Made by a program: the position numbers and the translations under genes. The notes under the pieces were generated by a model. That model had not been told where the DNA came from, searched no databases, and was given only the letters and a program-made list of their open reading frames with translations. From NCBI GenBank assembly GCA_017858255.1, contig JAFMBV010000032.1:1-34162 (forward strand): a stretch of DNA of 34,162 nt, read 5' to 3'. Positions within the stretch are counted from its first letter, which is position 1, and each line of letters begins with the position of its first letter. This DNA is from Bacteriovoracaceae bacterium (GTDB taxonomy: Bacteria > Bdellovibrionota > Bacteriovoracia > Bacteriovoracales > Bacteriovoracaceae). Positions 6,005 to 26,001 of this stretch are shown here, in pieces.

Positions 6005-6044
6005 GGCTCTTTTCTCTCACATCCAGATCAGTTAAGATCGTCTC

Positions 6045-9976: not shown

Positions 9977-10324
9977 ATGAAAATGGCCATTGCTGTCGAG
10001 GCTTTTAAACATCCTGACAAAAACTCTGACTACAAAGTCTGGTACCTCAACCTAAGTCAAATTGGTGAAGTCGTAGGTATCGGTGTGATGACGAGAAAGG
10101 AGTTAGTTCAGGATCTTTTCACTGAATACAAGCGAACCGGAAAATCTGGCTGGAGAGCATTTTGTTCAGAGGAAGAAGCGTCGCGACCTATTGAGGTCTT
10201 TGACTTTATTGCTCAGAACACTTGCGAAAACACCCATTTTGGAAATCTTCCAACACTGGCAGAGTTTCAAGTAACCCTCAACCAACTTCAATTAAATCTA
10301 GAATTAAGATCGATCGCTAGTTAA
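9977..10324 (+). CDS. Hypothetical protein, 115 residues
   Basis: The frame is open from an ATG at 9908 (138 residues), but only the ATG at 9977 has a strong ribosome-binding site (GGGAGG at 9966-9971, five bases away), so I use that start. The product is soluble, without signal peptide or membrane segment, and contains KVWYLNLSQIGEVVGIG and a short Cys-containing C-terminal half. I do not recognise a family. It stands alone, ends in a shared terminator with the minus-strand gene that follows, and is preceded by about 280 bases without another gene. Confidence 0.6.
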   Translation: MKMAIAVEAFKHPDKNSDYKVWYLNLSQIGEVVGIGVMTRKELVQDLFTEYKRTGKSGWRAFCSEEEASRPIEVFDFIAQNTCENTHFGNLPTLAEFQVTLNQLQLNLELRSIAS

Positions 10325-10329
10325 AAGTG

Positions 10330-10358
10330 TTAGGAAAGGACAGGACGTCCTTTCCTAA
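10330..10358. terminator. Bidirectional terminator between convergent genes
   Basis: TTAGGAAAGGAC (10330-10341) pairs perfectly with GTCCTTTCCTAA (10347-10358) around a 5-base loop. A T-rich stretch follows on the plus strand (ATTTCTTT) and a TTTT follows on the minus strand. It overlaps the stop codon of the scramblase-like gene and lies 5 bases past the stop at 10324, so it serves both. Confidence 0.85.
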
Positions 10359-10981: not shown

Positions 10982-11043
10982 AAAATCCTCTTTTCTATTA
11001 ATATCTACAGGGCTTTCGGCTTTCCACTAAGTCTTGAGAATCG

Positions 11044-11070
11044 TATAATGGGGCCGGTTACCCCCATTAT
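11044..11070 (+). promoter_or_regulatory. -10 box overlapped by a 9-bp inverted repeat before serA
   Basis: A perfect TATAAT lies at 11044-11049. It overlaps the left arm of an inverted repeat, ATAATGGGG (11045-11053) and CCCCATTAT (11062-11070), with an 8-base spacer. No good -35 box is seen 16-18 bases upstream (TTTCCA at 11021). There is no T run after the stem, so it is not a terminator. An operator over the -10 box is a reasonable reading, unproven. Confidence 0.5.
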
Positions 11071-11102
11071 TATAAGACATATTGCCCAAAAGAGGAGTTT
11101 TC

Positions 11103-13324: not shown

Positions 13325-14624
13325 GAATTTCACCTCTTAGCATATTGTCTGTGAAGTTATTTAAGTAGACGTGGCGAATTTGATTTTTCAATTCGCCATC
13401 ACTTTTAACCCAAACACGCACATAGTTTCTGGTATAACCTTCCCAAAAGCCTTGGTCCTTTCTTCTTTCAAAGAGAACTTCGCTAGAGGAGCCAACCTGA
13501 TCTTCTGCAAAGAGGTTTAGTTTGGCTTCACCAAACATCTTAAGAGTGCGAACTCTATCTTTTTTTATACCGTGTTGAATATGATCATCCATTTTAGCGG
13601 CCGTTGTATTCTTGCGACTAGAATAAGGAAAGACATGAAAATGAGTGATCGGTAATTCTTTTAAAAGATTATAAGTATTTTTAAATTGCTGTTCTGTTTC
13701 TCCAGGAAAACCACAAATGATATCGGCACCTATACCTGCATCAGGGAACATTGATACGACCCTAGAGATCAGGTCACGGTACATTGAAACAGTATATTTT
13801 CTGCGCATAAGCTTCAAGATATCATCATCCCCACTTTGAAGGGGAATATGAAAATGCTCCAAAAACTTAGGAGAGCTTGCAAAGGCCTTCAATAGGTCGT
13901 CGTTTAAAGTGTTAGGCTCTACGCTTGATAACCTTAAGCGCTCTAGCCCCTTCAAATCTAAGAGTTCATAAACAAGGTCGGTGAGTTTTTCACCTGTATT
14001 GGCCTCATACTCACCAATATTGACTCCGGTAAGCACGATCTCTTTAAACCCGTCTTGAATGACTTGTTTAGCGTTTTCAATTGCCTGCTTAATCGGAAGG
14101 GCACGACTTCTCCCTCTGGCCTGAGGAATTATACAAAAGGAGCAAACATAGTTGCAGCCATCCTGAATTTTTAAAAAGGCGCGTGTATGGCCTTCGGCCT
14201 CGGTAGTCGCAGCACTATAAAATGAGTTTGTTTTATCAATATGAACTTTTTCATCTTGTTCTTCTTCTAAATAATCAAAGACTTTGTATTTTTCAGAAGT
14301 CCCCAAGACCAAATCGACCCCAGTCATTTGAGAAATTCGCTCTGAATCCATCTGAGCATAGCAGCCAGCGACAACGACTTTGCCTTCAGGGCTCACCTTA
14401 TGCGCTTTACGTATGAGGTTGCGACAAGTTGAGTCCGCTCCGTCAGTTACTGTACAGGTATTAATAAAGCTCACATCAGCAGGTTCGCCAAAATCGACTA
14501 TTTCATAGCCCCTTTCTTGAAAACCTTTAGCAATAGAGCCAGTTTCAGAGAAATTGAGCCGGCAACCCAAGGTATGGAGGGCCACTCTCTTTTTATTTAA
14601 TTTCACGTCCCCAGACTGAGTCAT
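13317..14624 (-). CDS. mtaB: tRNA N6-threonylcarbamoyladenosine methylthiotransferase
   Basis: The 435-residue radical SAM enzyme adds a methylthio group to t6A37 of tRNAs reading ANN codons. The N-terminal UPF0004 domain has three cluster cysteines, Cys21 (TLGCRLN), Cys57 (NTCTV) and Cys88 (AGCYAQ). The radical SAM cluster is CNYVCSFC (Cys157, 161, 164). A TRAM-like domain fills the C-terminus. TLGCRLN (rather than TYGCQMN of MiaB) and the length place it with MtaB. GAGG lies four bases before the ATG. It is convergent with purA (8-base overlap) and its 5' end lies next to the tRNA operon, which runs the other way. Confidence 0.93.
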   Translation of the reverse strand: MTQSGDVKLNKKRVALHTLGCRLNFSETGSIAKGFQERGYEIVDFGEPADVSFINTCTVTDGADSTCRNLIRKAHKVSPEGKVVVAGCYAQMDSERISQMTGVDLVLGTSEKYKVFDYLEEEQDEKVHIDKTNSFYSAATTEAEGHTRAFLKIQDGCNYVCSFCIIPQARGRSRALPIKQAIENAKQVIQDGFKEIVLTGVNIGEYEANTGEKLTDLVYELLDLKGLERLRLSSVEPNTLNDDLLKAFASSPKFLEHFHIPLQSGDDDILKLMRRKYTVSMYRDLISRVVSMFPDAGIGADIICGFPGETEQQFKNTYNLLKELPITHFHVFPYSSRKNTTAAKMDDHIQHGIKKDRVRTLKMFGEAKLNLFAEDQVGSSSEVLFERRKDQGFWEGYTRNYVRVWVKSDGELKNQIRHVYLNNFTDNMLRGEILN

Positions 14625-14804: not shown

Positions 14805-14881
14805 GGTCCTGTAGCTCAGTTGGTTAGAGCATCTCCCTTTTAAGGAGAGGGTCCTGTGTTCGAGTCACAGCGGGATCACCA
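14805..14881 (+). tRNA. tRNA-Lys (anticodon TTT)
   Basis: A full cloverleaf can be drawn. The acceptor GGTCCTG pairs with CGGGATC (with GU pairs), the D-stem is GCTC/GAGC, the anticodon stem is TCTCC/GGAGA around CTTTTAA (anticodon TTT), and the T-arm is CTGTG-TTCGAGT-CACAG. The discriminator A is followed by an encoded CCA. It is the first gene of a two-tRNA operon. Confidence 0.97.
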
Positions 14882-14924: not shown

Positions 14925-15002
14925 GCTCCCATCGTCTAGTCTGGTCTAGGACACCGCCTTTTCACGGCGGTAACAGGGGTTCGAATCCCCTTGGGAGTAC
15001 CA
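14925..15002 (+). tRNA. tRNA-Glu (anticodon TTC); integration target
   Basis: The acceptor GCTCCCA pairs with TGGGAGT, the anticodon stem is CCGCC/GGCGG around TTTTCAC (anticodon TTC), the T-loop is TTCGAAT, and CCA is encoded. The last 16 bases (14987-15002) recur four more times downstream without the rest of the tRNA, always followed by a terminator. This gene is thus the complete member of a set of integration sites. Confidence 0.97.
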
Positions 15003-15012
15003 AGTTATAATT

Positions 15013-15038
15013 AAGCCCCTAGAAATAGGGGCTTTTTT
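15013..15038 (+). terminator. Terminator of the tRNA operon
   Basis: AAGCCCCT (15013-15020) pairs with AGGGGCTT (15027-15034) around AGAAAT, with T residues to 15038. If the array model is right, this terminator belongs to the last inserted module and replaced the original one. Confidence 0.93.
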
Positions 15039-15068
15039 ATTGCCTACGCGACCCGGCCACAAAAGATT

Positions 15069-15078
15069 TGCTCACACC
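15069..15078 (+). repeat. Left-end arm-like motif, module 1
   Basis: TGCTCACACC lies 82 bases from the tRNA-Glu core start. It matches the first unit of the doubled TGCTCAC motif found at the right end of this module, in the same orientation. Confidence 0.5.
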
Positions 15079-15126
15079 TGTACGTATAAAATCGATTCAA
15101 AAATAATAGTTTTGATTTGAAATTTA

Positions 15127-16287
15127 TTAAGGTGATTGATCTTCAGGAACAGGGACTCCAAGTGTTTCATAAAATTCTTTAATCATTGGAATCTCTCTAA
15201 GGTAAACCCAAGAACTCTGGTACTTTTCTTCACGTGGAATTTTTTGAATTGAACGATAATCAGGATGGATATTTTTACTTCGCTCCCACAATGGAATCAA
15301 GAAAAGGGCCTCGTCATTAGAGAGTGCTTTTGATGGTACTCCATAGGAAGTAATTTTACTTTCCTTACCCAATATTGAAACTGAAGGTATCCAGATTTTA
15401 TTCTCTTGGTTTTTTAAAATGTAGTAAGAAATATTTTGATTTTTAGACCAATATTCGAAGCCGGAGACTTGACCATAATAGTTTATAAGATAGTCTTCTG
15501 ATTCAAGAGGACCCACACTGTAATCTGGAGTATTCTCGAAAGATAGAAAATCAACACTTTCAGGTTTTGCAAATACATCTGATCTTTCCTCTCTTTTATA
15601 GATAAAGCTTCGCTCTTCCAGTAGAGGTTCTATCAGCAGACCCCTTGCAAAGCTAACTTCTTTAGCCATCAGAGCATCCTGCTTTGATTTAAAATCATTA
15701 AAAAGTCGCCTTTTTCTCTCGTCATATTGCTCAAAAGATTCGTTAAGCAACATCCCTCCAGCTTCATTATGGGAAGGAATCAATTGGTAAATGTGATTAA
15801 TGTTAATATCACTTCTATGGCTTCCCTTAGAAATTTCCTTAGCAAGATAAATTTGTAATTTTGGAGGTAGAGCTAAAGAGCCCTCTCCTATTCCCTTGCT
15901 GTACCACATGATTGAAGAAACTATTTCCCCAGCATGATTCTTACCTTTATAGTACTGAACAAATGGAGCTAAACGGAATATGCCATGAGAACCAGATTTG
16001 TAAAAAAATCTAAAATACTTCTTCCCATCAACTTCAACTGAAATAAAAACACCATACCTCTGGCTTCCAATAGAGGGAATGTGGGTAACAAACTTAAAAA
16101 GCTCTGAAACATGATAGACAGCATTTTTAAGTTTAATCTTCTTAACTGGGTATAGCTTCAAGGAATGGTAAAGCTCTAATGAGCGAGACTGATCGCTGGA
16201 TGAAAATATTAGATTTTCCGAATTAGAGACTTCTCCATAAGCTCCCCAAATAATAAAACATAATGCTGTGATTACTAGGCTTTTCAT
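15127..16287 (-). CDS. Secreted protein of unknown function (module 1 cargo)
   Basis: The 386-residue protein opens with a clear signal peptide (MKSLVITALCFIIWGAYG, cleavage near 18-20). The mature part has many aromatic residues (VQYYKGK, IMWYSKG, SWVYLREIP) and no Cys after the signal region. I see no catalytic motif and recognise no family. The ribosome-binding site is weak. It is the only gene of the first module and runs against the tRNA direction. Confidence 0.75.
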   Translation of the reverse strand: MKSLVITALCFIIWGAYGEVSNSENLIFSSSDQSRSLELYHSLKLYPVKKIKLKNAVYHVSELFKFVTHIPSIGSQRYGVFISVEVDGKKYFRFFYKSGSHGIFRLAPFVQYYKGKNHAGEIVSSIMWYSKGIGEGSLALPPKLQIYLAKEISKGSHRSDININHIYQLIPSHNEAGGMLLNESFEQYDERKRRLFNDFKSKQDALMAKEVSFARGLLIEPLLEERSFIYKREERSDVFAKPESVDFLSFENTPDYSVGPLESEDYLINYYGQVSGFEYWSKNQNISYYILKNQENKIWIPSVSILGKESKITSYGVPSKALSNDEALFLIPLWERSKNIHPDYRSIQKIPREEKYQSSWVYLREIPMIKEFYETLGVPVPEDQSP

Positions 16288-16394
16288 AAGAAGAACTTAA
16301 CATATCTCCTTTTACAAATAAGATAACTTGTAGATTTTATATCTCTAAGATTTCCAATCTCTAGATAAGGACACGAAAGAGATACTTTAAAGAA

Positions 16395-16550
16395 TGCTCA
16401 CACTTTGCTCACGGCCACATGTGAACTTTGATGAAGTATCATGAAATAAGATGAAATGAAAAATAAGGGTAAGTTATTAATATTCCTCAAAAAGTTAATG
16501 ATTCTGGAAGGTTAATTGTTAAGTGCTTGTAACTCCCCTTGGGAGTACCA
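16395..16550 (+). repeat. Module right end (156 bp) ending in a tRNA-Glu 3' copy
   Basis: The block starts with the doubled motif TGCTCACACTTTGCTCAC (units 11 bases apart) and ends with the tRNA-Glu end at 16535-16550. It is identical to the block at 18317-18472 except for one base (GTATC against GTTTC). Homology to tRNA-Glu continues past the CCA through AAGTTATAATT. No 5' part of a tRNA is present, so this is not a tRNA gene. The core in this copy is a short inverted repeat, ACTCCC-CTT-GGGAGT. The rest of the 391-base gene-free stretch 16288-16678 holds the terminator and left motif listed next. Confidence 0.9.
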
Positions 16551-16567
16551 AGTTATAATTTATAATC

Positions 16568-16593
16568 AAGCCACTGGAAACAGTGGCTTTTTT
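16568..16593 (+). terminator. Terminator at the second junction
   Basis: AAGCCACTG (16568-16576) pairs with CAGTGGCTT (16581-16589) around a GAAA tetraloop, then T residues. It is identical in sequence to the terminator at 23652-23677. Confidence 0.93.
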
Positions 16594-16610
16594 ATTGCCT
16601 AAAATCCATC

Positions 16611-16627
16611 TGCTCACACTTGCTGGC
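16611..16627 (+). repeat. Left-end arm-like motif, module 2
   Basis: TGCTCACACTTGCTGGC follows the terminator, 76 bases from the core start. The first ten bases equal the start of the right-end motif. A near copy sits inside this module at 17351. Confidence 0.55.
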
Positions 16628-16678
16628 AGGTATGATATTTTCAAAACTATATAAAATTTTGAAGTATAGAAACTAGCT

Positions 16679-17236
16679 CTAAAACTCAATAAACTCAATT
16701 TCAGCTATTGGGAAAACTCTGCTACCACTCGGGATAATCCAAATTTGCTTGAATGGATTTAAGCTATACATAGAATCAAAGCCACGCTTAGGCATCATAT
16801 ATTCTGGTTTAGAATAAACCGCTCCATTTGGCTCTCGAACTGTAGTTTCATCACTACTGGAATTTCCATGGGCTCTACCAATAAGAACCTTGGCCACAAT
16901 TATTGATACCTTCTTTGAATCGGACTTCCTCATTCTGCGATATTTAAGTACATCTTCAAGCTTGGGGCAAAGGTTTACTCCTCTACCGAAAGCCTTATAG
17001 TAGGAGCGAGACGAGTTGAATCCATTCTGAATTATCAATTTAGCACTTTTCGTATCAGTGAGATGATACATAGTTTTTATAGATGGCTTGATTCCTTTAT
17101 CTAAAAGCTTCTCTTTTTCCTTCTCAAATTTATTTCTAAATATCTTCGTATCGATAATAGTGGTCCCGATTACTTCTTTTAAGTAAGGCCTAATTTGTTC
17201 TTGAATTCTTTTTGGTAATTTCAGCAAATCTTCCAT
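16679..17236 (-). CDS. PARP-like ADP-ribosyltransferase-fold protein (module 2 cargo)
   Basis: The 185-residue protein has a charged helical N-terminus (1-50) and then the order of motifs of a PARP catalytic domain: MYHLTDTKSAKLIIQNGF (His58 where PARPs have the NAD-binding His), YKAFGRGVNLCP (82-91, matching the G-x-G-I-Y-F loop), Tyr99, KVLIGRAHGN (116-125, the 'RVLVG' strand), RGFDSM (151-156), and FPIAEIEF near the end (the 'YPEYLI' strand). The Tyr of the H-Y-E triad is Asn88 here, and the place of the Glu is unclear, so activity as a mono-ADP-ribosyltransferase is uncertain. No signal peptide is seen. Ribosome-binding site is weak. It may be a toxin, defence or regulatory protein, but this is inference. 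Confidence 0.6.
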   Translation of the reverse strand: MEDLLKLPKRIQEQIRPYLKEVIGTTIIDTKIFRNKFEKEKEKLLDKGIKPSIKTMYHLTDTKSAKLIIQNGFNSSRSYYKAFGRGVNLCPKLEDVLKYRRMRKSDSKKVSIIVAKVLIGRAHGNSSSDETTVREPNGAVYSKPEYMMPKRGFDSMYSLNPFKQIWIIPSGSRVFPIAEIEFIEF

Positions 17237-17350
17237 TTTTATATTTTAACTCAAATTTCCAATAATAATTCGACAATATGTCGCTCTCAAATATTTTCAC
17301 CTTACTTTAATAATGAGTACACCTTTTCTCAAAATTAAAGTTGTTCTTTT

Positions 17351-17368
17351 TACTCACACTTGCTGGCC
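17351..17368 (+). repeat. Orphan left-end motif inside module 2
   Basis: TACTCACACTTGCTGGCC copies the left-end motif at 16611 with one change in the first positions, but no tRNA end or terminator is next to it. It lies between the PARP-like and GNAT genes and looks like the scar of a lost junction. Confidence 0.45.
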
Positions 17369-17370
17369 TT

Positions 17371-18279
17371 TCATCTCAATTTAAACTGATACCTATAGAG
17401 CCTTTTCCAAATAGAAGGAGTCCACTCACACATAAAGTCAAAAGTCGGCTCAAACGAATCGAATTCAAAATAGACCTTGTCGCCAAGACCACGGCACTCG
17501 CTTATTTGTTTTGAATAGAGTCCGATGATTCTCTGAAACTCTTCTTCAACTGTAGGACCTTCAGCATAACCATGAATACAGGTAACAGGTTCATCGATAT
17601 TTAACCTCTTAGAAAAGTCTCTAAAGCAAAGTGATACGCCACAAATTTGGTTATCTTTGTCCATTAGAACAAAGCCTAAGTTTTGATCCCCCTCAAGAAA
17701 ATAATCATCTCTGACTTCTTTATCCTTCGTAAGAGGCCAAACAGGATCGTGATCTCTGTCATAAATTCGACAATGAAAATTTTTAACATCTAAAGGGCTA
17801 CCACCATTTTTGTAATATTTTTTAAGACAGACTAAATTTTCCGTGAAGGCCATAAGAGGGAATTCTTCAGGGTGGCTCAGTACACTGGTCCCAGTAATCC
17901 TATTATCCGGGCACAATGATTCTATAAATCGCGTTTTCTCTTCCTCATTTTCATAGCATCCCATGTCTATAGAAAAGTCTTTTTCCTTGGGGGGGAACAG
18001 AGACTGGAGATTATTGTGAAGAGTTGTTCCAACTCCTTTTCTACGGCTTTCGTTTCTGACGTAAACATCTTCTACGAGTGTGAAAGGGTGAAGCTCATTT
18101 CTTGAATAACAGGCGACTCCTAGAATTTCGCCAGCTGTATCTGAAGAAATAGCAATCGATCGAGTATTTAGAAAAGTTCTCAGAAGCACTGAGTCGACTT
18201 TCTCATTGTTTAAAAAGTGCTCAACTTCTTCTAACTGTACTTCCTTTAAAGCCTTTATTTTCATAAAGCTCAATTTCAC
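17371..18279 (-). CDS. GNAT-family acetyltransferase, possibly two-domain (module 2 cargo)
   Basis: The 302-residue cytosolic protein has a GNAT core in its first half: a strand GEILGVACYSRNELHPFTLVEDVYV and the acetyl-CoA motif RNESRRKGVGTTLHNNL (about 77-93, R-x-x-G-x-G type). The second half (about 175-302) contains GFVLMDKDNQICGVSLCFRD, which looks like a second, weaker GNAT-like domain without a clear acetyl-CoA loop. The substrate is unknown. It starts 43 bases before the next right-end block on the other strand and is oriented away from it. Confidence 0.75.
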   Translation of the reverse strand: MKLSFMKIKALKEVQLEEVEHFLNNEKVDSVLLRTFLNTRSIAISSDTAGEILGVACYSRNELHPFTLVEDVYVRNESRRKGVGTTLHNNLQSLFPPKEKDFSIDMGCYENEEEKTRFIESLCPDNRITGTSVLSHPEEFPLMAFTENLVCLKKYYKNGGSPLDVKNFHCRIYDRDHDPVWPLTKDKEVRDDYFLEGDQNLGFVLMDKDNQICGVSLCFRDFSKRLNIDEPVTCIHGYAEGPTVEEEFQRIIGLYSKQISECRGLGDKVYFEFDSFEPTFDFMCEWTPSIWKRLYRYQFKLR

Positions 18280-18316
18280 ACAATCACTGAGAAAACTAAA
18301 GCCAATTTATTCAACT

Positions 18317-18472
18317 TGCTCACACTTTGCTCACGGCCACATGTGAACTTTGATGAAGTTTCATGAAATAAGATGAAATGAAAAATAAGGGTAAGTTATT
18401 AATATTCCTCAAAAAGTTAATGATTCTGGAAGGTTAATTGTTAAGTGCTTGTAACTCCCCTTGGGAGTACCA
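18317..18472 (+). repeat. Module right end (156 bp) ending in a tRNA-Glu 3' copy
   Basis: The block has the same length and sequence as 16395-16550 with one mismatch, from the doubled TGCTCAC motif to the CCA. After the CCA the sequence differs (GTTATTAAAGCCC), so homology stops at the tRNA end, as expected for a crossover there. Together with the terminator that follows, it fills most of the 328-base gene-free stretch 18280-18607. Confidence 0.9.
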
Positions 18473-18478
18473 GTTATT

Positions 18479-18510
18479 AAAGCCCTGCTATATGCGGGGC
18501 TTTTTTTTTT
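18479..18510 (+). terminator. Terminator at the third junction
   Basis: AGCCCTGC (18481-18488) pairs with GCGGGGCT (18494-18501, one GU pair) around TATAT, followed by a run of ten T residues. The sequence differs from the other junction terminators while position and direction are the same. TGCTCAAATC right after it (18510) is a weak version of the left-end motif. Confidence 0.92.
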
Positions 18511-18607
18511 GCTCAAATCTTCAGTTTGAAATTAAGTTTAAGTCAAGATTCAAACAAGCTGCTTTATATCATTTAAACCTAAACACGTTTGACTGTAGTT
18601 TAGGGAC

Positions 18608-19738
18608 ATGAAGAAATCATCATTATTATTGATTCTTGGTCTTTACCTATTTCTCCTATCTTTAACGGGGTTTAAGGAAGCGTGGCATTTAGCTTTTATG
18701 AATCCTCAAAATGAGCATTGGATAAAATCAATTCTTCACAATGCTTTAGAGAGTCCTTTCACAGGGCTGCTTGCTGGAATTGTTATTACCTCAATGGTTC
18801 AAAGTAGTTCAGCAACTATCGCACTAGTGGTGGCAACTGTTGGCTCGGGAGTGATTGAAGTCTCTCATAGTGTCTTTATTTTAATGGGGGCAAATATTGG
18901 CACCACAATAACAAATACTATTGTCGGTCTTGGTTATGGAAAAGATAATACGGACTTCAAGCGCGTGCTTCCCTCCATTCTAGTCGATGATATTTTTAAA
19001 ATGCTAAACGTCGCCCTCTTTTTTACTCTTGAAGTTTTGACGGGTTTTCTTCATAAACTCTCTCAATACTCAGTTGATTTTTTCACAAAGGACACAGGAA
19101 AGAACTCTCTTCTAGCCTATTTTCCCGACCTAGTCGATGTAATCACAAAGCCCGTAATCAACCACACGGTTCTTCCCTTCGCCCATCTCGTCTCCTCTCC
19201 AATTGTCTCTGCATTAATTGTGGGCATCGCATTTTTTTTGCTGCTTATTTTTGCCCTCAACATGATGGGTCACTCCTTGGAAAGACTGCTCAAGGATAAA
19301 AGTGAAGCCTTCTTGAAAAAGGCTCTCGCTAATCGCCCCCAGGCTTTTGGTATTGGCTTGGTCCTTTGCTGGCTTTTACAGTCAAGTTCTGTCACCACGA
19401 GCCTGATCATCCCCCTCGTGTCTCAGTCTATTGTTAGCCTTCCCTCTGTTTATTACTACTCACTTGGTGCGGCTATTGGGACGACCTGTGATCCGGGACA
19501 ACTCCTCTCTTATCTTAAGTTTGGACCCCTCGGCCTTAAGGCAGGGGCTATTCATATCTTCCTTAATTTATTGGGAGTGTTAATTTTTGCTCTTGTTCCC
19601 GGATTAAAAGAACTTCCACAATTCATTGCCACCTCCCTAGGTAATACTATAGCCAGCCGTAAAAAAGGTCCTCTCTATTTGATTGGCTACACCTTTACAG
19701 TTTTTATCTTATTTCCCTTGGGGGCCATTTTTCTTTAG
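18608..19738 (+). CDS. Na+/phosphate-cotransporter-family membrane protein (module 3 cargo)
   Basis: The 376-residue protein has about 8-9 hydrophobic segments and the two inverted repeats of the NptA/SLC34 family. Each repeat has its QSSS signature: MVQSSSATIALVVA (about 63-76) and LLQSSSVTTSLIIP (about 257-270), followed by GANIGTTITNT and GAAIGTTCDPG. It should import phosphate (or a similar anion) with Na+ across the inner membrane. There is no C-terminal PhoU domain, unlike many bacterial YjbB-type members. Cargo of this type is unusual beside secreted proteases. It is the first gene after the third junction, in the tRNA direction, with AGGGAC just before the ATG. Confidence 0.88.
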   Translation: MKKSSLLLILGLYLFLLSLTGFKEAWHLAFMNPQNEHWIKSILHNALESPFTGLLAGIVITSMVQSSSATIALVVATVGSGVIEVSHSVFILMGANIGTTITNTIVGLGYGKDNTDFKRVLPSILVDDIFKMLNVALFFTLEVLTGFLHKLSQYSVDFFTKDTGKNSLLAYFPDLVDVITKPVINHTVLPFAHLVSSPIVSALIVGIAFFLLLIFALNMMGHSLERLLKDKSEAFLKKALANRPQAFGIGLVLCWLLQSSSVTTSLIIPLVSQSIVSLPSVYYYSLGAAIGTTCDPGQLLSYLKFGPLGLKAGAIHIFLNLLGVLIFALVPGLKELPQFIATSLGNTIASRKKGPLYLIGYTFTVFILFPLGAIFL

Positions 19739-19884
19739 AGCACCTGAACTATAAAGGGTGACTCCTAACCTATTACTAAAATTCTAAGGCCAAATTTAAA
19801 GCGAGCATTAAATACCTAACTGGATATTTATCCTCCCTCCACCTAATATGCCCTTGATTAAAGAATATCAATCAGGAGGGACCT

Positions 19885-20028
19885 ATGATCCTAAGATTTT
19901 TTAAAAAATTTTTCTATTGTATTTTAAGAAAGTCACCCGAAGCTCCTTATGACTTTTTGAAGCTAGAATATTCAAGGGCAAGGCCTTTAGGTGAATATCA
20001 GCAAGAGGATCACATAATTAGTAAGTGA
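19885..20028 (+). CDS. Small basic protein, 47 residues (module 3 cargo)
   Basis: A very strong ribosome-binding site (AGGAGGG at 19874-19880) lies four bases before an ATG that opens 47 codons ending in TGA. The product starts MILRFFKKFFYCILRK, an amphipathic, basic and aromatic helix, then a polar tail with SPEAPYDFLKLEYSRARP. No family recognised; the N-terminus may sit on a membrane. Evidence for coding is the ribosome-binding site and the clean open frame. Confidence 0.5.
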   Translation: MILRFFKKFFYCILRKSPEAPYDFLKLEYSRARPLGEYQQEDHIISK

Positions 20029-20038
20029 GCCTCTTAAA

Positions 20039-20986
20039 TTAATGAAATTGAGGGAGATCTAAATGGTAGCCAAACCAAACTTGAACTCCCTCTTCATATT
20101 TTTGGGAATCTCTTTCAGGCCAACTTTTTGTTTCGGGACGAAATGCCCTAAAGTGGTTTTCTTCATGAATGGCTTGTGCTTCTGAACCAGAAAAGCTCAT
20201 GGTTCCACACATGATATGCTTGGCGTGAACGAGTTCATGATAGACGTTATCAATATAAAGAAAGGGAATCTGCTCTCTCTCAGAGGATTTTGTACCAACG
20301 AGATGAGAGCCCTCCACAGGTTGATCAAAGCGAAAACGAATGTAAGCATTCTCTCCTCTTCCTTCAAAAATTCCTGAACTTGCGTGATTTGCCCCAGTAT
20401 AGCCTCCACCAGAAAGGGAATGCTTATCATCGTAAATTAAAAGTTCTTTTTGGCAGTCCTGCATATCCTCATAAAGTTTCATGCCTAGGGGGTTTGCCTT
20501 AATTTGGTGAAGAGTATTAAGCATTCTTTTTAGTTTTTTAGGAGAACCTTTAACTGTGATAAACGGAAATGGAGCAAAAGAAATAGTTTCTTCTTCGGCC
20601 TCTTCAAGCTCTTTAAGGAAGTCTGCTTCACTTAGATTAAATGCACCTCCATACTCTTCTTGAAAGACTTCAAAAAGTATGGGGAAGAGACTGTAAGCAT
20701 CAGTGCTAACACTATTTCCCAACAGTTCTCTCAAACCGCCACCTTGATAAGCGAGGTGCGAATCGTTTATCGAGACACGAAACTCAGGTCTTTTATGTTT
20801 AAGACCATGAATAAGCATTTCTCCAGTTTTTGTTTTATAAATTTCTGTCATGGTGTCTGTTAGTTTTAGAACCAAGCTTCTTGGACCTTTAAAAGTAGTA
20901 CGTTGGTAACTCCATGAAATATCGGCTTCATTCGCATGAACTAGGCCTAAATGAAAAAAGAAACTGAATAAGATTATTTTTTTCAT
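20039..20986 (-). CDS. Secreted HExxH metalloprotease-like protein (module 3 cargo)
   Basis: The 315-residue protein has a signal peptide (MKKIILFSFFFHLGLVHA, about 1-18) and a zinc motif HELVH (His250, Glu251, His254) in the context YIDNVYHELVHAKHIMCG. Downstream EAQAIHEENHFRAFRPETK could supply the third ligand. This pattern is like the M91 (NleD-type) peptidases, but I hold that loosely. It is probably exported. The ATG at 20986 overlaps the stop of the upstream gene (TGATG), with no ribosome-binding site of its own, so translation is probably coupled. Confidence 0.75.
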   Translation of the reverse strand: MKKIILFSFFFHLGLVHANEADISWSYQRTTFKGPRSLVLKLTDTMTEIYKTKTGEMLIHGLKHKRPEFRVSINDSHLAYQGGGLRELLGNSVSTDAYSLFPILFEVFQEEYGGAFNLSEADFLKELEEAEEETISFAPFPFITVKGSPKKLKRMLNTLHQIKANPLGMKLYEDMQDCQKELLIYDDKHSLSGGGYTGANHASSGIFEGRGENAYIRFRFDQPVEGSHLVGTKSSEREQIPFLYIDNVYHELVHAKHIMCGTMSFSGSEAQAIHEENHFRAFRPETKSWPERDSQKYEEGVQVWFGYHLDLPQFH

Positions 20987-21795
20987 CAATGATACTTTTG
21001 GATTAGTGCCTTCACTTTACTTTGAATATCAAAATCTTCTAAAAACTGTACTCGCTTTTGTTCATCCTCTTGCCAGGCAGCTTCTTCCTCAAGCAACTCG
21101 CATGCAAAAGCCACTTCTTCAGCTGAGTGTTCAACCTGGGGAAAGCAACAAAATTGGGTAAGATAAACAATGTCCACGTACTTTTTTGGAAAGTGACTAC
21201 TTCCCGTCCAGTGAAACATCTCATGAAAGACTAGAGAACGTGGATTTTCTATAAAACCAACTCTTGGATTTCGAGTGCCTGGAATTACATCTTCAATTCT
21301 TAGTTCGTGGTTATAAAAAAGAACGAAATTATTCCTTTGAGCCTCAGTCATATATACAGGAAAATTACCCGCCATCCTATTAGTATCAAATAAAACCGAA
21401 GGGTGGGGAGGGAGTCCATGATCTTGGCCTCCCTGTTCAAGCTCATCAGCTAAAGAAGAGGCGACAGCATAATAGCTATTTGTGACTCCGTAATTACACG
21501 TCAATATTTTCTCTTTCGTCCCCTCGATAATTTCAAAAAAGTGCTGAAACTTATCAACAACAAAAGGAGCAAAGTCATGGTTATTAAGGCAGGTTTTTGT
21601 CTGTGATAGTGAGCTTAAAAAATCATTTTTAAGCCTGGTATTTCCCTCTGTTTGCTCTATCTGAGAGTCATAATAGGGATAGGTCTCACAGCTTTTAATC
21701 ATAAGGTTAAAACGCTCAAGTCGAAGCTCACTTGAAAAGACAGAACTCACTGAAATTACGCTAAAGAGCAATGTAAGGAATACTAAATTTGGCAT
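20986..21795 (-). CDS. Secreted protein with a metzincin-like zinc motif (module 3 cargo)
   Basis: The product (269 residues from the ATG at 21795; a GTG at 21810 is also possible, neither with a good ribosome-binding site) has a signal peptide (about 1-22). Near residue 191 lies HEMFHWTGSSH, a full H-E-x-x-H-x-x-G-x-x-H motif, which gives three zinc ligands and the catalytic Glu. Metzincins have a Met-turn after this motif, but no Met is found anywhere downstream, so it is either a divergent clan or uses another ligand, for example the acidic HSAEEVAFAC stretch. Six or more Cys suggest disulfides in an exported protein. It is the first gene of a coupled pair with the HELVH protein. Confidence 0.72.
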   Translation of the reverse strand: MPNLVFLTLLFSVISVSSVFSSELRLERFNLMIKSCETYPYYDSQIEQTEGNTRLKNDFLSSLSQTKTCLNNHDFAPFVVDKFQHFFEIIEGTKEKILTCNYGVTNSYYAVASSLADELEQGGQDHGLPPHPSVLFDTNRMAGNFPVYMTEAQRNNFVLFYNHELRIEDVIPGTRNPRVGFIENPRSLVFHEMFHWTGSSHFPKKYVDIVYLTQFCCFPQVEHSAEEVAFACELLEEEAAWQEDEQKRVQFLEDFDIQSKVKALIQKYH

Positions 21796-21941
21796 GCCCA
21801 AAGAAAGCACAATTCTGCCAAAAGCCCCTGAATTTTGTAGTTTATTTAGGGACTAACAACCTGTAGAGCCCAGCATGTAAGAAAAAGTCAGAAAGTTCAA
21901 TGTTTTCTATTTGGACTCCTTTAATTACGACCTCTTTTAGT

Positions 21942-22097
21942 TGCTCACACTTTGCTCACAGGCACATGTGAAATTAGATGAAGTTTCGTGAAAAAAGATG
22001 AAACAAAGAATCAGGGTAAGCTGTCGATATTCCTCTAGAAGGCAATGATTCTGGAAGGTTAATAAATTGGTGTTTGGAATTCCCCTTGGGAGTACCA
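21942..22097 (+). repeat. Module right end (156 bp), diverged copy
   Basis: The block aligns without gaps to 18317-18472, with 26 mismatches by my count (about 83% identity). The doubled TGCTCACACTTTGCTCAC, the stretch AATGATTCTGGAAGGTTAAT and the tRNA-Glu end (22082-22097) are kept. The gene-free stretch 21811-22185 holds this block and the terminator that follows; the first 130 bases show nothing else I can name. Confidence 0.88.
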
Positions 22098-22107
22098 ATT
22101 TTATATT

Positions 22108-22136
22108 AAAGCCCCGTTTTTACGGGGCTTTTTTTT
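22108..22136 (+). terminator. Terminator at the fourth junction
   Basis: AAAGCCCCGT (22108-22117) pairs with ACGGGGCTTT (22122-22131) around TTTT, with T residues to 22136. Confidence 0.93.
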
Positions 22137-22150
22137 GTCCAAAATCCTCT

Positions 22151-22170
22151 TGAACACCTTTGAACACCCC
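22151..22170 (+). repeat. Left-end arm-like motif, module 4 (different type)
   Basis: TGAACACCTT and TGAACACCCC lie in direct tandem, 69 bases from the core start. The same motif recurs at the right end of this module (23486) and nowhere else that I saw, so both ends of module 4 share their own motif in place of TGCTCAC. Confidence 0.65.
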
Positions 22171-22185
22171 AACCGACAAGAGCCC

Positions 22186-22419
22186 TTATTCAATACAGTC
22201 CCATGCTTCAACGATTTCGGGTATGGACTGACTAAGTCTGTAAAAACTACTTCTATTTTGAAATCCAAGATAACGAGAAACACGTTTCTTATTCCCCTCA
22301 CAAAAATCTATTGCAGTATTTATTTCCTTGGCCACAGCAATAGTGACCTTACAAGACCCACATACATTCTTTCCAAGATTATTCTTCGTGAAACACCGTT
22401 TACAATATGGATGATACAT
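22186..22419 (-). CDS. Zinc-ribbon plus Fis-type HTH protein (module 4 cargo)
   Basis: The 77-residue protein has an N-terminal zinc ribbon (Cys6-x2-Cys9, Cys20-x2-Cys23) and then INTAIDFCEGNKKRVSRYLG followed by QNRSSFYRL (about 33-62). This has the shape of the Fis/NtrC C-terminal helix-turn-helix (compare A-L-x-x-x-x-G-N-x-x-x-A-A-x-x-L-G-I-x-R-x-T-L-Y-R). The ribosome-binding site AGGAGG lies six bases before the ATG and is one of the best in the window. It is probably a small DNA-binding regulator. Its place just inside the left end of a mobile module makes a role in excision control or element regulation possible, which is inference. Confidence 0.75.
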   Translation of the reverse strand: MYHPYCKRCFTKNNLGKNVCGSCKVTIAVAKEINTAIDFCEGNKKRVSRYLGFQNRSSFYRLSQSIPEIVEAWDCIE

Positions 22420-22754
22420 CTATTGCCTCCTAAGTAGCTGATTTAGACTTTTTTCGTTCAATAGGGTCTCTTTAGTCCTTTTAAAATATTAATATTATCA
22501 ACACTCATTCTATCTCCCATGGGTTGTTGGATAGGTCGAATGAATTTTATGATGATTAGATGGACTTTTATATTTTCCATATAAGTAACTGAGAATACAG
22601 ACAAAATCGACAATGCAAGCAACTGCATTTATAGAATTATTAAAAGTTGAATTATTTTGTTTAGTTCAACTATTGGCAGTTTAAAGAATTATTAAAGTTT
22701 TACCTGAATTGTTCGATAAATTATTTGAATACTTGCGAACTAAATGGAGTCATT
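22420..22754 (+). other. Gene-free stretch in module 4
   Basis: The stretch is AT-rich and has stops in all frames. It holds an imperfect hairpin (AGTTGAA near 22645 with TTCAACT near 22664) and presumably the divergent promoters of the two module 4 genes. I see no clear -35/-10 pair. Confidence 0.4.
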
Positions 22755-23114
22755 TTGAATATATACAAACGCATCATCCTATTTCTGGCTATTTCCTTTA
22801 GCTTTAACGTGATGGCAAACGACTGTGAAGCAATTGATAAAAAACGATACCCTACAGAATATAAAATGTGCAAAGATATTGCAAAAAAATCTGCTGACTC
22901 CAAGGGGATAGATTGTCCAAATTGTTTGGTTGATGACTTATCTGATTGTACTAGGCAAATAAACAAGGAAATTTCATGTGATGAAGGAAACTATATTTTT
23001 GTTAGTGGAAAAACAGGTACTAATATCAATGACACCCTAACTAGAGAATCAAAAAAATCATCTCCTGCTTCAAATGGAGGTAGTGATAATACTTCAAAAA
23101 CTATCCCGAAATAG
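22755..23114 (+). CDS. Small secreted Cys-containing protein (module 4 cargo)
   Basis: The frame opens at a TTG at 22725, but GGAG (22746-22749) points to the TTG at 22755, five bases away, so I use it. The 119-residue product starts with a signal peptide (MNIYKRIILFLAISFSFNVMA, cleavage before NDCEA). The mature part has Cys in DCEA, KMCKD, IDCPNC, SDCTR and ISCDEG (six in all, probably disulfides) and a Ser/Asn/Lys-rich tail. No family recognised. It ends before an AT-rich hairpin. Confidence 0.6.
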   Translation: MNIYKRIILFLAISFSFNVMANDCEAIDKKRYPTEYKMCKDIAKKSADSKGIDCPNCLVDDLSDCTRQINKEISCDEGNYIFVSGKTGTNINDTLTRESKKSSPASNGGSDNTSKTIPK

Positions 23115-23120
23115 ATTAAA

Positions 23121-23160
23121 AATAATTATAAATTAGACTTATAATTATTAAATTATTTTT
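23121..23160 (+). terminator. AT-only hairpin, possible terminator
   Basis: AATAATTATAA (23121-23131) pairs perfectly with TTATAATTATT (23139-23149) around ATTAGAC, with a T run at 23156-23160. The stem has no GC pairs, so termination would be weak. It lies just after the stop at 23114. Confidence 0.45.
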
Positions 23161-23271
23161 AAAGTCAAGAGAACGAGGGAGTCATTATCAGTATCGACTA
23201 TATCCTTAAACTACCTTGAACTAATGATTTAACTGGATGTTGTTCTTAATCCAAATATAGGTCGGGTAATT

Positions 23272-23442
23272 CTAAGATAGCCTTGTGTTGAACAAACTCT
23301 CCTTTACGCAATCGCTTGCATGGCCAATTAAAAAAGCTTTTAAGATGCCGATACAAATATCCTTACTTGGATAGAAGTTTATCAAAAAAATGTCTTTGAT
23401 GGCTTGTTCTGGTCTGTTTTCGCATTCATTAATTATCCTCAA
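23272..23442 (-). pseudogene. Possible small or decayed ORF in module 4
   Basis: A 57-codon frame from a TTG gives a protein-like sequence (LRIINECENRPEQAIKDIF and PSKDICIGILKAFLIGHASD). No usable ribosome-binding site precedes it, and the frame is closed by a stop a few codons further upstream. It is either a gene remnant or chance. The rest of the 645-base stretch 23115-23759 holds only the AT hairpin, the diverged right-end block and a terminator. Confidence 0.2.
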
Positions 23443-23485
23443 TACCCCACAACCTATTCAAAATTTCCCAAGTAGTAAATCTACC

Positions 23486-23641
23486 TTGAACACCTTTTGA
23501 ACACCCCAACTCATGAATTACGGTGAAATATCCAAGGATAAGATTAAATAAGAAAATGAGGAAGACCGCATTCACACTGACAAAACCTTGATTTCATAGT
23601 GGTTTAATTATTAATGGTTTAAGCACCCCTTGGGAGTACCA
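23486..23641 (+). repeat. Module right end (156 bp) with a different arm motif
   Basis: The block begins with TTGAACACC repeated at an 11-base interval (23486 and 23497) and ends with the tRNA-Glu end at 23626-23641, the same overall length as the other three blocks. The interior is strongly diverged, but core-proximal similarity remains: GGTTTAATTATTAATGG against GGTTAATTGTTAAGTGC, each starting 29 bases before the core. Confidence 0.8.
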
Positions 23642-23651
23642 AGTTATAATC

Positions 23652-23677
23652 AAGCCACTGGAAACAGTGGCTTTTTT
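23652..23677 (+). terminator. Terminator at the fifth junction
   Basis: AAGCCACTG and CAGTGGCTT form the stem around GAAA, then T residues. The sequence from the tRNA end through this hairpin equals that at 16568, apart from 8 extra bases before the hairpin in the 16568 copy. Confidence 0.93.
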
Positions 23678-23759
23678 ATTGCCTAATTTCTATTTTTTGC
23701 GACTCATTATTCACCACTACTAACATTGCTAACAATCTCAGCAATTGGCCCAACTTACA

Positions 23760-24482
23760 CTAGACTTTCATTTTGGAGTACTCATGACGGGAAAGCTGAT
23801 CAAGTTTTTTCATCCAAGGAAAAAGGTACTCACTATCTTTAATAAAGTCCCTAAAGAAACAAAGCTGTGGGTTGTAGAGTTGGTAGCAAAAACTAAAAAG
23901 CGAGAAGTCGACAATAGAGATCTCTTCACCGAGCCAAAAAGTAGAGTTTTTCAAATGATTATCAAATCCAGTAAGGAGCTCTAGAGCCAACTCTTTCTTT
24001 TGGTTGGCCATGTAGGAGATATCTTCCACCTGCGAATTTAGAGTCAGCATTGTCTTCGATATGAGATTCAACTTTTCTTCCGTAAGGCCATCATAAATCT
24101 TGGTGTAATCTTTGAAGATTCTTTCTTTAACCTTCTCCTCAGTGCAAAGAATGCTTGTGTAGAGTCCCACTAAGTTCGTTGTGGACCACTCGAAAAGAAT
24201 TCGCGTAGCAAGTGAGTTCATCTCCGGAATAAGGCAGATATTATTTCGATGAGCCGAGTCCTTACATAGTTGAATGATCTCAGTTGATGAAAAAATCTTT
24301 TCATTTTCCCTCAAGAGAGGAACTTGTCTTAACTCGAGATGAAGACTTTTAGCATCCTGAGGCATGACAATCCAGCGAGGACTAAACTCAACCTTACAAT
24401 ATTTCAGAAGCCTCATAAAGAAGAGGCACCTTATGGAGATGCTCTCCACATATGAATCAGAAAACCAGACAATTAATTCCAT
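23760..24482 (-). CDS. Glutathione S-transferase-like protein (module 5 cargo)
   Basis: The 240-residue protein has a diverged thioredoxin-like N-terminal domain, in which RQVPLLRENEKIFSSTEIIQL (about 52-72) matches the GST pattern V-P-x-L-x-x-x-x-x-x-x-x-E/S-S-x-x-I. The C-terminal helical domain carries FWLGEEISIVDFSLF (about 182-196), like the conserved F-L-x-G-x-x-x-S-x-A-D-x-x-L motif. No Ser/Cys/Tyr catalytic residue can be named with confidence near the N-terminus. It is probably cytosolic, with unknown substrate. It is the only gene of the fifth module and runs against the tRNA direction. AAGG touches the ATG, so the ribosome-binding site is poor. Confidence 0.65.
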   Translation of the reverse strand: MELIVWFSDSYVESISIRCLFFMRLLKYCKVEFSPRWIVMPQDAKSLHLELRQVPLLRENEKIFSSTEIIQLCKDSAHRNNICLIPEMNSLATRILFEWSTTNLVGLYTSILCTEEKVKERIFKDYTKIYDGLTEEKLNLISKTMLTLNSQVEDISYMANQKKELALELLTGFDNHLKNSTFWLGEEISIVDFSLFSFCYQLYNPQLCFFRDFIKDSEYLFPWMKKLDQLSRHEYSKMKV

Positions 24483-24609
24483 CCTTAAATTATAGTGTAT
24501 TTTTTCATTAATCTAAACGCGAATAAAGGGTCTAAAACAACCAAAGAAATGCAAAATAAATCCTTTGAACACAGGCGTTAAACAATAAGTATTGTGCCCA
24601 ACTATACGG

Positions 24610-24655
24610 GACCAAGGAAAGGACAGATCAATTGGAAACAGTGGCTTTTTTTTTT
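24610..24655 (+). repeat. Decayed sixth junction
   Basis: GGAAACAGTGGCTTTTTT (from 24634), then TTTGCCTTTAAGGTATCTGCTCACTC, follows the left-end pattern at 16577-16620 (terminator right arm, T run, GCCT, ATCTGCTCAC). The left arm of the hairpin is degraded (GATCAATTG for AAGCCACTG), and only GGGACCAAGG remains where the tRNA end should be. This looks like an old left end whose core site has decayed. Confidence 0.5.
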
Positions 24656-24749
24656 GCCTTTAAGGTATCTGCTCACTCTTGATAGAGTTAATAATTTCAG
24701 GCCTACTTAGAAAATAACGATTTAACGGCTTTAACCTAAGGAGCGATTC

Positions 24750-25145
24750 ATAAAAAAGCTTTTTACGTTTACATTTTTGCAGCTACTTATTCCAACAGTT
24801 ATATTTGGTTTATTTTTATTACTTTTGACCATCACCCCAATGATCCCAAGTTCTGACAAGAAGTCAGTCTACGTTGTGATTTTGATGACTTTGGCTTCTG
24901 GAGTATTTTGTGGAGCGATTCCTTGCATAACCTTTGGATTTTTAACTCAGAGAACTTTTCCCAACTTTAATTTTCAAGTTAAATCGCTGCTCTACTGGTT
25001 CTTAAGTTTTCTTTTTACAATGTTGATATGGTTTCCTAGTGGTGGAGGAGCCGAAGAGGGAAAAATTTATTTGATTGTATGCTATGCTTCTATTGCAGCT
25101 ATTTGCTGGATTCTTTTGTCAAAAAGATATTTATCTAGCCTTTAA
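24750..25145 (+). CDS. Small membrane protein with an apparent ATA start
   Basis: AAGGAG (24738-24743) lies six bases before ATA AAA AAG CTT TTT, in frame with the whole protein. Read from there, the N-terminus would be (M)KKLFTFTFLQLLIPTVIFG, a natural membrane-protein start. The first ordinary start codon (TTG at 24777) has no ribosome-binding site and lies inside the first membrane segment. So the start codon seems to be ATA, through mutation or real AUA use. About four hydrophobic segments follow in 131 residues. No family recognised. The 3' end overlaps the radical SAM gene on the other strand by 11 bases. Confidence 0.55.
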   Translation: MKKLFTFTFLQLLIPTVIFGLFLLLLTITPMIPSSDKKSVYVVILMTLASGVFCGAIPCITFGFLTQRTFPNFNFQVKSLLYWFLSFLFTMLIWFPSGGGAEEGKIYLIVCYASIAAICWILLSKRYLSSL

Positions 25146-26001
25146 AGCGTTTTATATAAGTACACTTTTGGCAAAGGTCTTCCACAAGACGGCCGTTTTC
25201 AAAACCTACTTTTATATCCTGTGCTCTCTTTGAATTTAGAATATTTTCCACAGAGTCGTTAAAGCAATTGCCCAAATCAATTAACGCCTCCTTATCTAAA
25301 CAGCAAGGAACGACTGTTCCATCGGCATGAATACCGAAGTGGTTTCTTAATCCCTGGCAGGTTCCTTGCTCCCCCTGTGGTGGGTAGTGAGGAGATGGCC
25401 AATCAAAGCGACTATCAAAATGAAAATATAGCCTTTTATCTTCAAATACTTTTTTACTCTTGATACTTCCTACATCGACTGTTCTCTTTAAGTTAAATGA
25501 AAAGTTTTCTTCAAAGTATTGGATTATGTCCTCATTTTCAGAAAAGCTCTCAGTACCATGATTCCATAGCCTTAGATTAATATATAAATCTGGACGATTC
25601 TCAAAAGCCGTCTTGATAAAAGCACGAATAGGATCTAGGTATCCCTCTAAAGGTCTATCGGGAAAGTTATCTTTGAAGGCCTGCAGAGAAAAGTTAATTT
25701 GCCTCAAAGAAGGTGAATTGATCAATATATCACCCAGCTTCTTAATCAGAAGACCGTTAGTTGTAATTTGCAAACTTGCTTTATGAGTCTGAGATACCTT
25801 TAAAATTTCTACTATTTCAGGATGCGCCAAAGGCTCTCCCATAAGGTGGAGACAAACATCTTTCGTGAGAGGCACAACTTCTTTTAAGACCTTTTCAAAT
25901 TTCACGAGACTCATGATGTCTTTAGGACGTTCTACAACGGGACAAAAGGAACATTGAACATTACAGATATTTGAAATTTCAATATGAACTTTTTGAAACA
26001 T
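25135..26001 (-). CDS. Radical SAM protein with SPASM-like C-terminal cysteines
   Basis: The 288-residue cytosolic protein has the SAM-cluster motif CNVQCSFC (Cys13, 17, 20) at the very N-terminus, HLMGEPLAHPEI (the GGE-like motif, here MGE), and TTNGLL. The C-terminal part has TCQGLRNHFGIHADGTVVPCCLD and LCQKCTYIKR, the auxiliary-cluster pattern of SPASM proteins, which modify peptides, proteins or small molecules. No peptide substrate gene is obvious nearby. The substrate is unknown. The ribosome-binding site is weak. It is convergent with the small membrane protein. Confidence 0.85.
   Translation of the reverse strand: MFQKVHIEISNICNVQCSFCPVVERPKDIMSLVKFEKVLKEVVPLTKDVCLHLMGEPLAHPEIVEILKVSQTHKASLQITTNGLLIKKLGDILINSPSLRQINFSLQAFKDNFPDRPLEGYLDPIRAFIKTAFENRPDLYINLRLWNHGTESFSENEDIIQYFEENFSFNLKRTVDVGSIKSKKVFEDKRLYFHFDSRFDWPSPHYPPQGEQGTCQGLRNHFGIHADGTVVPCCLDKEALIDLGNCFNDSVENILNSKRAQDIKVGFENGRLVEDLCQKCTYIKRFKG

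Follow-up and report, generated by a model that had tools for sequence, protein, structure and literature searches.

How does a row of unrelated genes come to stand behind one tRNA gene when no integrase lies among them? The question is raised by a stretch of 34,162 nucleotides from a Bacteriovoracaceae bacterium, a 34-kb contig (C166) of a 4.08-Mb genome in 207 contigs, which was analysed over its whole length and is called the window below. Behind its tRNA-Glu gene lie four complete cargo modules and a damaged fifth, all without an integrase; they likely arrived in successive insertions. We hold with high confidence that site-specific integration of this kind gave rise to the array, and the sequence makes it probable, at a clearly lower level of certainty, that related elements which use the same tRNA supply tyrosine integrases that move the modules in trans. 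In what follows G000 is the genome of the window, other G numbers are genomes of relatives, L numbers are fetched loci and C numbers are contigs.

The 16-nt core CCCCTTGGGAGTACCA is present in five exact copies, all on the plus strand, at 14987, 16535, 18457, 22082 and 23626, just as an initial annotation of this DNA had reported; 100 shuffles gave no copy at all (mean 0, largest 0), and the rest of the G000 genome has none even with up to two mismatches allowed. Of the five, the first is the 3' end of the tRNA-Glu (14925-15002) and the remaining four are displaced copies. A terminator-like hairpin follows every copy within 6-17 nt (15013, 16568, 18479, 22108 and 23652), which bears out the terminators of that annotation. 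The five modules it proposed became four complete ones of 1.5-3.6 kb (1,548, 1,922, 3,625 and 1,544 bp from core start to core start), one of the five copies being the tRNA itself, and a damaged fifth, from 23642, whose right-hand core is gone and of which a partial terminator remains at about 24630-24659. The fixed 156-bp end ascribed to the modules was likewise correct for three of the four displaced copies (blocks at 16395, 18317 and 21942, with 100, 99 and 83% identity). The end before 23626 has different letters, the right ends of modules 4 and 1 being 49% identical without gaps over the 150 bp before the core, and a single fixed end for all modules is ruled out by this. The reported absence of an integrase from the array was confirmed: there is no PF00589 match on the contig, all 12 matches of G000 being on other contigs, and no open reading frame (ORF) of at least 80 amino acids (aa) in the window matched either of two integrase profiles, so the array holds no integrase remnant of 80 aa or more. 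The features of the locus are these:

13317-14624, minus strand: mtaB, conserved chromosomal left flank
14805-14881, plus strand: tRNA-Lys(ttt), left neighbour (ARAGORN; Rfam RF00005)
14925-15002, plus strand: tRNA-Glu(ttc), integration target; the core is its last 16 nt, 14987-15002 (ARAGORN; Rfam)
15003-16550, plus strand: module 1; terminator 15013-15034, single left arm TTTGCTCAC 15067-15075, right end 16395-16550
15127-16287, minus strand: module 1 ORF of 386 aa, no Pfam match at E 0.01
16395-16550, plus strand: module 1 right end; arm pair 16395-16412, 10-bp-spaced (A/G)TGAA units 16421-16455, core 16535-16550
16551-18472, plus strand: module 2; terminator 16568-16589, left arm TGCTCACACTT 16611-16621, right end 18317-18472
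16679-17236, minus strand: module 2 PARP-like ORF, below the Pfam cut-off
17353-18510, plus strand: unit common to G000 and G002 (90.3% identity), from an internal arm copy to the right core and terminator
17371-18279, minus strand: module 2 GNAT acetyltransferase
18317-18472, plus strand: module 2 right end; arm pair 18317-18334, 10-bp units 18343-18377, core 18457-18472
18473-22097, plus strand: module 3; terminator 18479-18503, no recognisable left arm, right end 21942-22097
18608-19738, plus strand: module 3 Na+/Pi cotransporter
20039-20989, minus strand: module 3 M91-type peptidase-like ORF
20986-21810, minus strand: module 3 ORF without a Pfam match
21942-22097, plus strand: module 3 right end; arm pair 21942-21959, 10-bp units 21978-22002, core 22082-22097
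22098-23641, plus strand: module 4, second arm class; terminator 22108-22131, left arm pair 22150-22167, right arm pair 23486-23504
22186-22419, minus strand, and 22725-23114, plus strand: module 4 small ORFs
23513-23527, plus strand: two 10-bp-spaced units of the module 4 right end, with its core at 23626-23641
23642-24659, plus strand: module 5, damaged; terminator 23652-23673, right core absent, partial terminator about 24630-24659
23760-24482, minus strand: module 5 GST-C-like ORF
24670-24681, plus strand: left-arm-like remnant TGCTCACTCTTG (repeat family D5), perhaps the trace of a further unit whose core was lost
25135-26001, minus strand: radical SAM/SPASM gene, conserved chromosomal right flank

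The first evidence for integration comes from the attachment sites (att). Right ends of elements at this site, whether or not the element bears an integrase, have one common layout: an arm pair, ATGAA-like units, about 65 bp, and the core. The arm pair, some 125-140 bp ahead of the core, consists of two repeats of 7-8 nt spaced 10-11 bp apart, and the units lie near -111, -101, -91 and -81 from the core. The 39 right ends compared, like the 31 elements of the arm test below, were chosen by hand; spacers of about 170-185 bp, in-gene matches and contig-edge ends were left out. On these right ends ATGA(A/G) occurred 116 times versus 14.1 expected (standard deviation 3.6, most 25; 500 shuffles), with 3 occurrences in the control stretch, and 61 of the 78 unit spacings were exactly 10 bp. 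Two units 10 bp apart were present in 34 of the 39: all 10 integrase-bearing ends, 16 of the 19 integrase-less ones and 8 of the 10 undecided. The 10-bp signature was found at 34 of 50 displaced cores versus 0 of 66 intact tRNA ends; the displaced cores had been recounted to 50 after the first labels (60 displaced, 68 intact) had misfiled some tRNAs. Terminator-like hairpins followed 92 of 128 cores (37 of the 60 first labelled displaced) versus 16 of 1,500 random stretches.

All four displaced cores of the window show the att layout of the integrase-bearing elements; despite its different letters, the right end of module 4 also has an arm pair, units 10 bp apart (only two), core and terminator. 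Cores bound modules 1-4 on both sides and right arm pairs are kept at all four displaced cores. On the left, an arm pair is present in module 4 and single arms in modules 1 and 2, and in these three modules some arm letters are common to both ends, with none in module 3. Across the family the arm-pair letters vary widely (TGCTCAC, TTGAACA, TGTTCCG, TTGGTCT, TGCTCGT, TTACCCA and others). The right ends of modules 1-3 carry TGCTCAC pairs and module 4 carries TTGAACAC pairs at both of its ends, which suggests two arm address classes within one array. In integrase-bearing elements the left end is the one beside the integrase, and for 11 of them taken as a group only 2 of 20,000 permutations matched left with right arms as well as the real pairing.

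The initial annotation had looked to a recombinase with matching ends encoded elsewhere, and integrases with the same att layout were indeed found at tRNA-Glu in relatives. Of 62 loci (those labelled intact, with 1.5 kb of sequence, searched with a profile of the first nine integrases), 13 have an integrase that starts no more than 600 bp from tRNA-Glu; this count rests on the first labels, so that the integrase-carrying locus L119 is outside it. In a tree that took in the first nine of these integrases, the nine form one clade (support 100/98) that excludes the 12 integrases of G000. The modules of the window are without the integrase gene of this clade. Clustering placed a small HTH_17-type protein next to seven of the nine integrases, and an eighth copy was read beside that of G006. 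All four of the small neighbours tried matched the Pfam family HTH_17, and both of two matched the excisionase model TIGR01764 below its cut-off. In the RdfS system, as given in the cited text (PMC11963761), an HTH directionality factor forms a tetramer on a 40-bp stretch of attP, one monomer per 10 bp, and the integrase and attP are the only element-encoded needs for integration; by analogy, the 10-bp ladder and the HTH_17 gene would fit this picture.

Some integrases could be candidate helpers for modules of the window or of its relatives. The left arm pair of module 4 is identical over 18 nt to the pair beside the integrase of G003, of the same genus, and TGCTCAC pairs stand beside the integrase of G026, of the same family. 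In G029 a 60-kb core-to-core interval, read at both ends only, has an integrase at its left end. Its right arm pair recurs in the adjacent 3.2-kb integrase-less module, and the right ends of interval and module are 85% identical without gaps; this is likely a helper and its passenger side by side. At L067 of G029 (9003-12160), beside the integrase, we also observed matches to phage families: a single-strand-binding protein (7e-24), a weak terminase (1.7e-7) and a weak replication initiation match. Because genes beside its integrase match phage families, the G029 helper may be a prophage, and at least one helper element thus has phage-like genes. A different observation concerns L092 (contig C125 of G000, 4350-6782). 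The integrase there is sister to the tRNA-Glu clade and has an HTH_17 neighbour too, but it is found immediately next to mutM/fpg, with GGTTGGCA repeats, which suggests a protein-gene target for this sister.

Taken together, these features suggest how the array may have grown. The excised circle would carry a core and a terminator, and each insertion would therefore rebuild the tRNA end and its terminator and leave a core for the next. Perhaps the N-terminal part of the integrase reads the variable arm pair as an address, with the HTH_17 protein lying along the 10-bp units as a directionality factor or excisionase. A module without both genes would then move once they are provided by another element, already present or newly arrived, whose arms fit.

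Several results weigh against movement in trans and against parts of this mechanism. Movement is read from sequence comparison across species. None of the 12 integrases of G000 belongs to the clade, and the nearest, with 34% identity, is the one on C125 beside mutM/fpg with other repeats. The G003 integrase is shortened, its N-terminal part being gone. In the arm test, 2 of the 11 integrase-bearing elements showed no match singly (ranks 25 and 13 of 31), and the 19 integrase-less modules gave no significant left-right match (1,901 of 20,000 permutations); inclusion of the 244-bp module G002m7 gave 97 of 20,000, a result that depended on the overlapping ends of that module. Arm letters did not follow integrase similarity (Mantel test, 14 integrases, Spearman 0.09, 1,977 of 10,000). 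The 10-bp signature is missing at 16 of the 50 displaced cores, at least three of which are chance matches inside genes, and the 66 intact tRNA ends are not 66 independent trials because these control ends are related sequences. Finally, the 10-bp footprint of RdfS is an analogy only, because RdfS has no consensus motif in the cited account (PMC11963761).

The strongest evidence for movement without an integrase comes from the GNAT module, which is 90.3% identical in G000 and G002. At fourfold-degenerate sites 12 of 95 differ in the GNAT gene versus 92 of 163 in mtaB, 68 of 121 in purA and 47 of 77 in the radical SAM gene (Fisher test, 9e-13 versus mtaB and 2e-11 versus radical SAM). Simple constraint does not explain this, because the GNAT protein is less conserved (89% identity) than MtaB (93%). 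With silent sites far more alike than those of the flanking genes, the integrase-less GNAT module must have moved horizontally between species, and the shared tract starts at an arm and ends past the terminator of the right core. Within module 2, homology to the G002 module begins at 17353, at the second of two copies of a 15-bp piece of the left arm (CTCACACTTGCTGGC, 16613-16627 and 17353-17367). The two copies flank a 0.7-kb stretch with the PARP-like ORF that is missing from the G002 version, and module 2 looks like two fused units, or like the product of an insertion at, or fusion through, an arm. In a second pair, G084 and G085, the two longest module genes differed at 48/277 and 23/158 silent sites and two others at 2/40 and 13/44, versus 24/49 in part of mtaB; the G084 element is split over contigs and may carry an integrase. 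A third pair, G129 and G135, was mixed (23/87 and 23/46 versus 96/147, 112/168 and 73/131). Judged by these silent sites, two species had long been separate when one integrase-less module passed between them. Integrase-less DNA at tRNA-Glu thus moves between species, and the agent that moves it is what we infer.

The wider family shows that the site is used repeatedly, the comparisons spanning species with one genome per species. In G000 the order before the array is purA, mtaB, tRNA-Lys and tRNA-Glu. Most relatives in the set fetched first have an mtaB homologue before the site (a 23-member cluster), and the radical SAM gene is also to the right of it in G001, G002, G005 and G006. The exact core is present in 66 of 129 family genomes; displaced cores, one-mismatch cores included, number 50 in the fetched loci of 32 of 74 genomes. 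A search for the 156-bp block in related genomes, as had been proposed, found it in 6 of 59, G000 counted (E <= 0.001). The cargo at tRNA-Glu differs between species of the genus, in support of the proposal that non-autonomous elements integrated repeatedly at one tRNA. G002 has seven displaced cores, one with a mismatch, and its cargo comprises an esterase-like protein, a sigma-70-like protein, an unknown 181-aa protein, a double GNAT, a histidine kinase and an Rrf2 regulator; its DNA matches to G000 modules are the GNAT unit and 228 bp of module 3. Within the reach of the fetched contigs, no G000 module was found at the loci of G001, G003, G004, G005, G006 or G013 beyond right ends, terminators and flanks.

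Other observations were made at these loci. Two complete tRNA-Glu copies about 1-4 kb apart occur in five genomes of genus g3 (L068, L114, L115, L116 and L117), with tRNA-Lys doubled too, at least in L068, which is another kind of duplication at the site. Left ends in G002 (L059, 2574-2854, 8720-8964 and 13193-13484) and G005 (L060, 866-1024) share another 130-290-bp sequence after the terminator; no arm pair was seen in it, and it may be a small repeat in its own right or a second type of left end. At 13075-13235 of L060 a right-end block of about 79% identity with more than two mismatches in the core is a decayed site, and an integrase-less module of G012 (L073, 7110-10159) holds two diverged copies (75%) of one gene pair. 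A scan of viral contigs with three patterns found no array (0 stretches for one pattern; 2 without a tRNA gene; 2 that were intact tRNA-Glu genes). An exact scan of genome contigs with a 17-nt arm pair gave 28 stretches, of which 4 had titles naming Bacteriovoracia or Halobacteriovorax, so the arm pair alone is no marker.

Could the modules instead be remnants? Complete elements would have been stacked by tandem accretion and would have lost integrase and left end in place, as in cis-mobilizable elements (CIMEs), with no later movement. Their ends agree with this, given that right arm pairs are kept at all four displaced cores and a left pair only in module 4, the end where complete elements have their integrase gene. 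Module 5 and the unit near 24670 lack cores, module 4 of G002 resembles a deleted relative of module 3 (228 bp in common), and integrase-less modules are smaller than integrase-bearing ones (median 1,911 versus 8,833 bp; 20 and 11 elements). However, the integrase-less GNAT module crossed between species well after the hosts had split, as did a 5-kb core-adjacent tract, arm letters recur at both ends of modules 1, 2 and 4, and the array has kept no piece of integrase of the length searched for. We therefore regard this explanation as unlikely, though it is the most serious rival of movement in trans.

Less probable still is the reading that modules come and go mainly by homologous recombination, for instance once DNA has been taken up, with the block, core and terminator of their similar ends as the homology, an integrase having only founded the site. 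The right ends of modules 1 and 2 would offer RecA homology, being 99% identical over 156 bp or 95% over the 150 bp before the core, and no cognate integrase was found in G000. Yet the ends of modules 4 and 1 are too unlike to fit this easily, and the 1,931-bp module 3 of G002 ends in an arm class that differs from those of both adjacent modules. A repeat of the common dispersed or tandem kind, unlinked to integration, has nothing beyond the repetition itself in its favour and practically no standing: the copies are an exact tRNA end, keep one orientation, lie at a single locus with unrelated cargo between them, and follow the layout of integrase-bearing elements. A simple dispersed repeat is ruled out by the integrase clade at tRNA-Glu, the shared att layout and the 10-bp signature counts.

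Further searches of the array gave negative results. Among the Pfam matches of 10 array-region ORFs there were no transfer genes, and PADLOC found no defence system in the same 10. Seven array proteins had no NCBIfam match or only matches below cut-off, Rfam at the gathering threshold reported only the two tRNAs, and promoter-like sites were at chance level (31 versus 29.1). Far from the array, at 68-277 of the window, four imperfect 36-bp repeats rich in CCGCC/CCACC are perhaps a glycine-rich coding repeat on the other strand.

Movement in trans has to be set beside known systems, here as the cited passages describe them. The Dehalococcoides ssrA islands (PMC3146451) also stand in tandem after a single RNA gene, with copies of the 3' end of that gene at their borders; 16 have an integration module next to attL, and the authors suggest that the 15 without one may be cis-mobilizable elements. 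The Dehalococcoides islands use a serine recombinase module and a tmRNA, whereas the target here is tRNA-Glu and the integrase a tyrosine integrase with an HTH_17 neighbour; the modules hold one to three genes, and their att arms vary within one array. Additive flexible genomic islands (fGIs) also resemble this array in the repeats of a tRNA 3' end that bound variable units: at tRNA-Lys in Methylopumilus (fGI-2), repeats of the last 20 nt of the tRNA precede variable islands of 330 bp to 42 kb (PMC10872708), and in Alteromonas fGI1 a conserved tRNA is the target of cassette insertion (PMC4119200). A xerC integrase is occasionally present in fGIs; the att arms and helper elements described here are not named for fGI-2 or fGI1 in the passages cited. 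CIMEs (PMC5704250) likewise lack integration and transfer genes; their kept att ends and tandem accretion have a counterpart in the cores and right ends of modules 1-4, less clearly in the left arms. By definition, however, CIMEs are integrative and conjugative or integrative and mobilizable elements that lost these genes, whereas here the modules are small, and at least one of them passed between species though it carries no integrase. Clusters of attC sites lacking integrases (CALINs), cassette rows without a recombinase that can be mobilised in trans (PMC11389934), differ in that the borders here are tRNA cores with paired arms; no search was aimed at attC or IntI. The likeness to tycheposons that had been proposed is limited to a tRNA site and cargo: the modules have no tyrosine recombinase and, at 1.5-3.6 kb (1,544-3,625 bp), are far below the 4-200 kb given for tycheposons (PMC10872708), which are ruled out.

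An undescribed family, as the initial annotation put it, is consequently right only in part, tandem integrase-less islands at tRNA and tmRNA genes being already known from the cited passages (PMC3146451, PMC10872708, PMC4119200, PMC5704250). What we regard as new is a readable att package common to likely helpers and passengers, two address classes in one array, and silent-site evidence that an integrase-less module has moved. Among the literature matches listed, mostly outside subscription journals, there was no description of this system in Bacteriovoracaceae.

When an island has no recombinase, one can seldom tell whether it is a dead remnant or a passenger carried by the integrases of other elements. 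Since the att package can be read from the sequence, many integrase-less modules could be assigned by their arm letters to a candidate helper, and each assignment could be tested singly. The arms would also be a natural set of addresses for tyrosine integrases with one core and apparently one excisionase ladder. Tentatively, and with somewhat less than even confidence, we see here a cassette system for phage-type tyrosine integrases, in which mobile units of one to three genes circulate through the Bacteriovoracaceae and pile up at tRNA-Glu. Its standard att package would combine a variable arm pair (the address of one integrase type), a fixed 10-bp ladder for a common excisionase, the tRNA core and a built-in terminator, and one array could mix modules addressed to different helpers, as a counterpart of integrase-less integron arrays. 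Such a system would give these bacteria a route to gain single genes at a fixed, terminator-insulated site.

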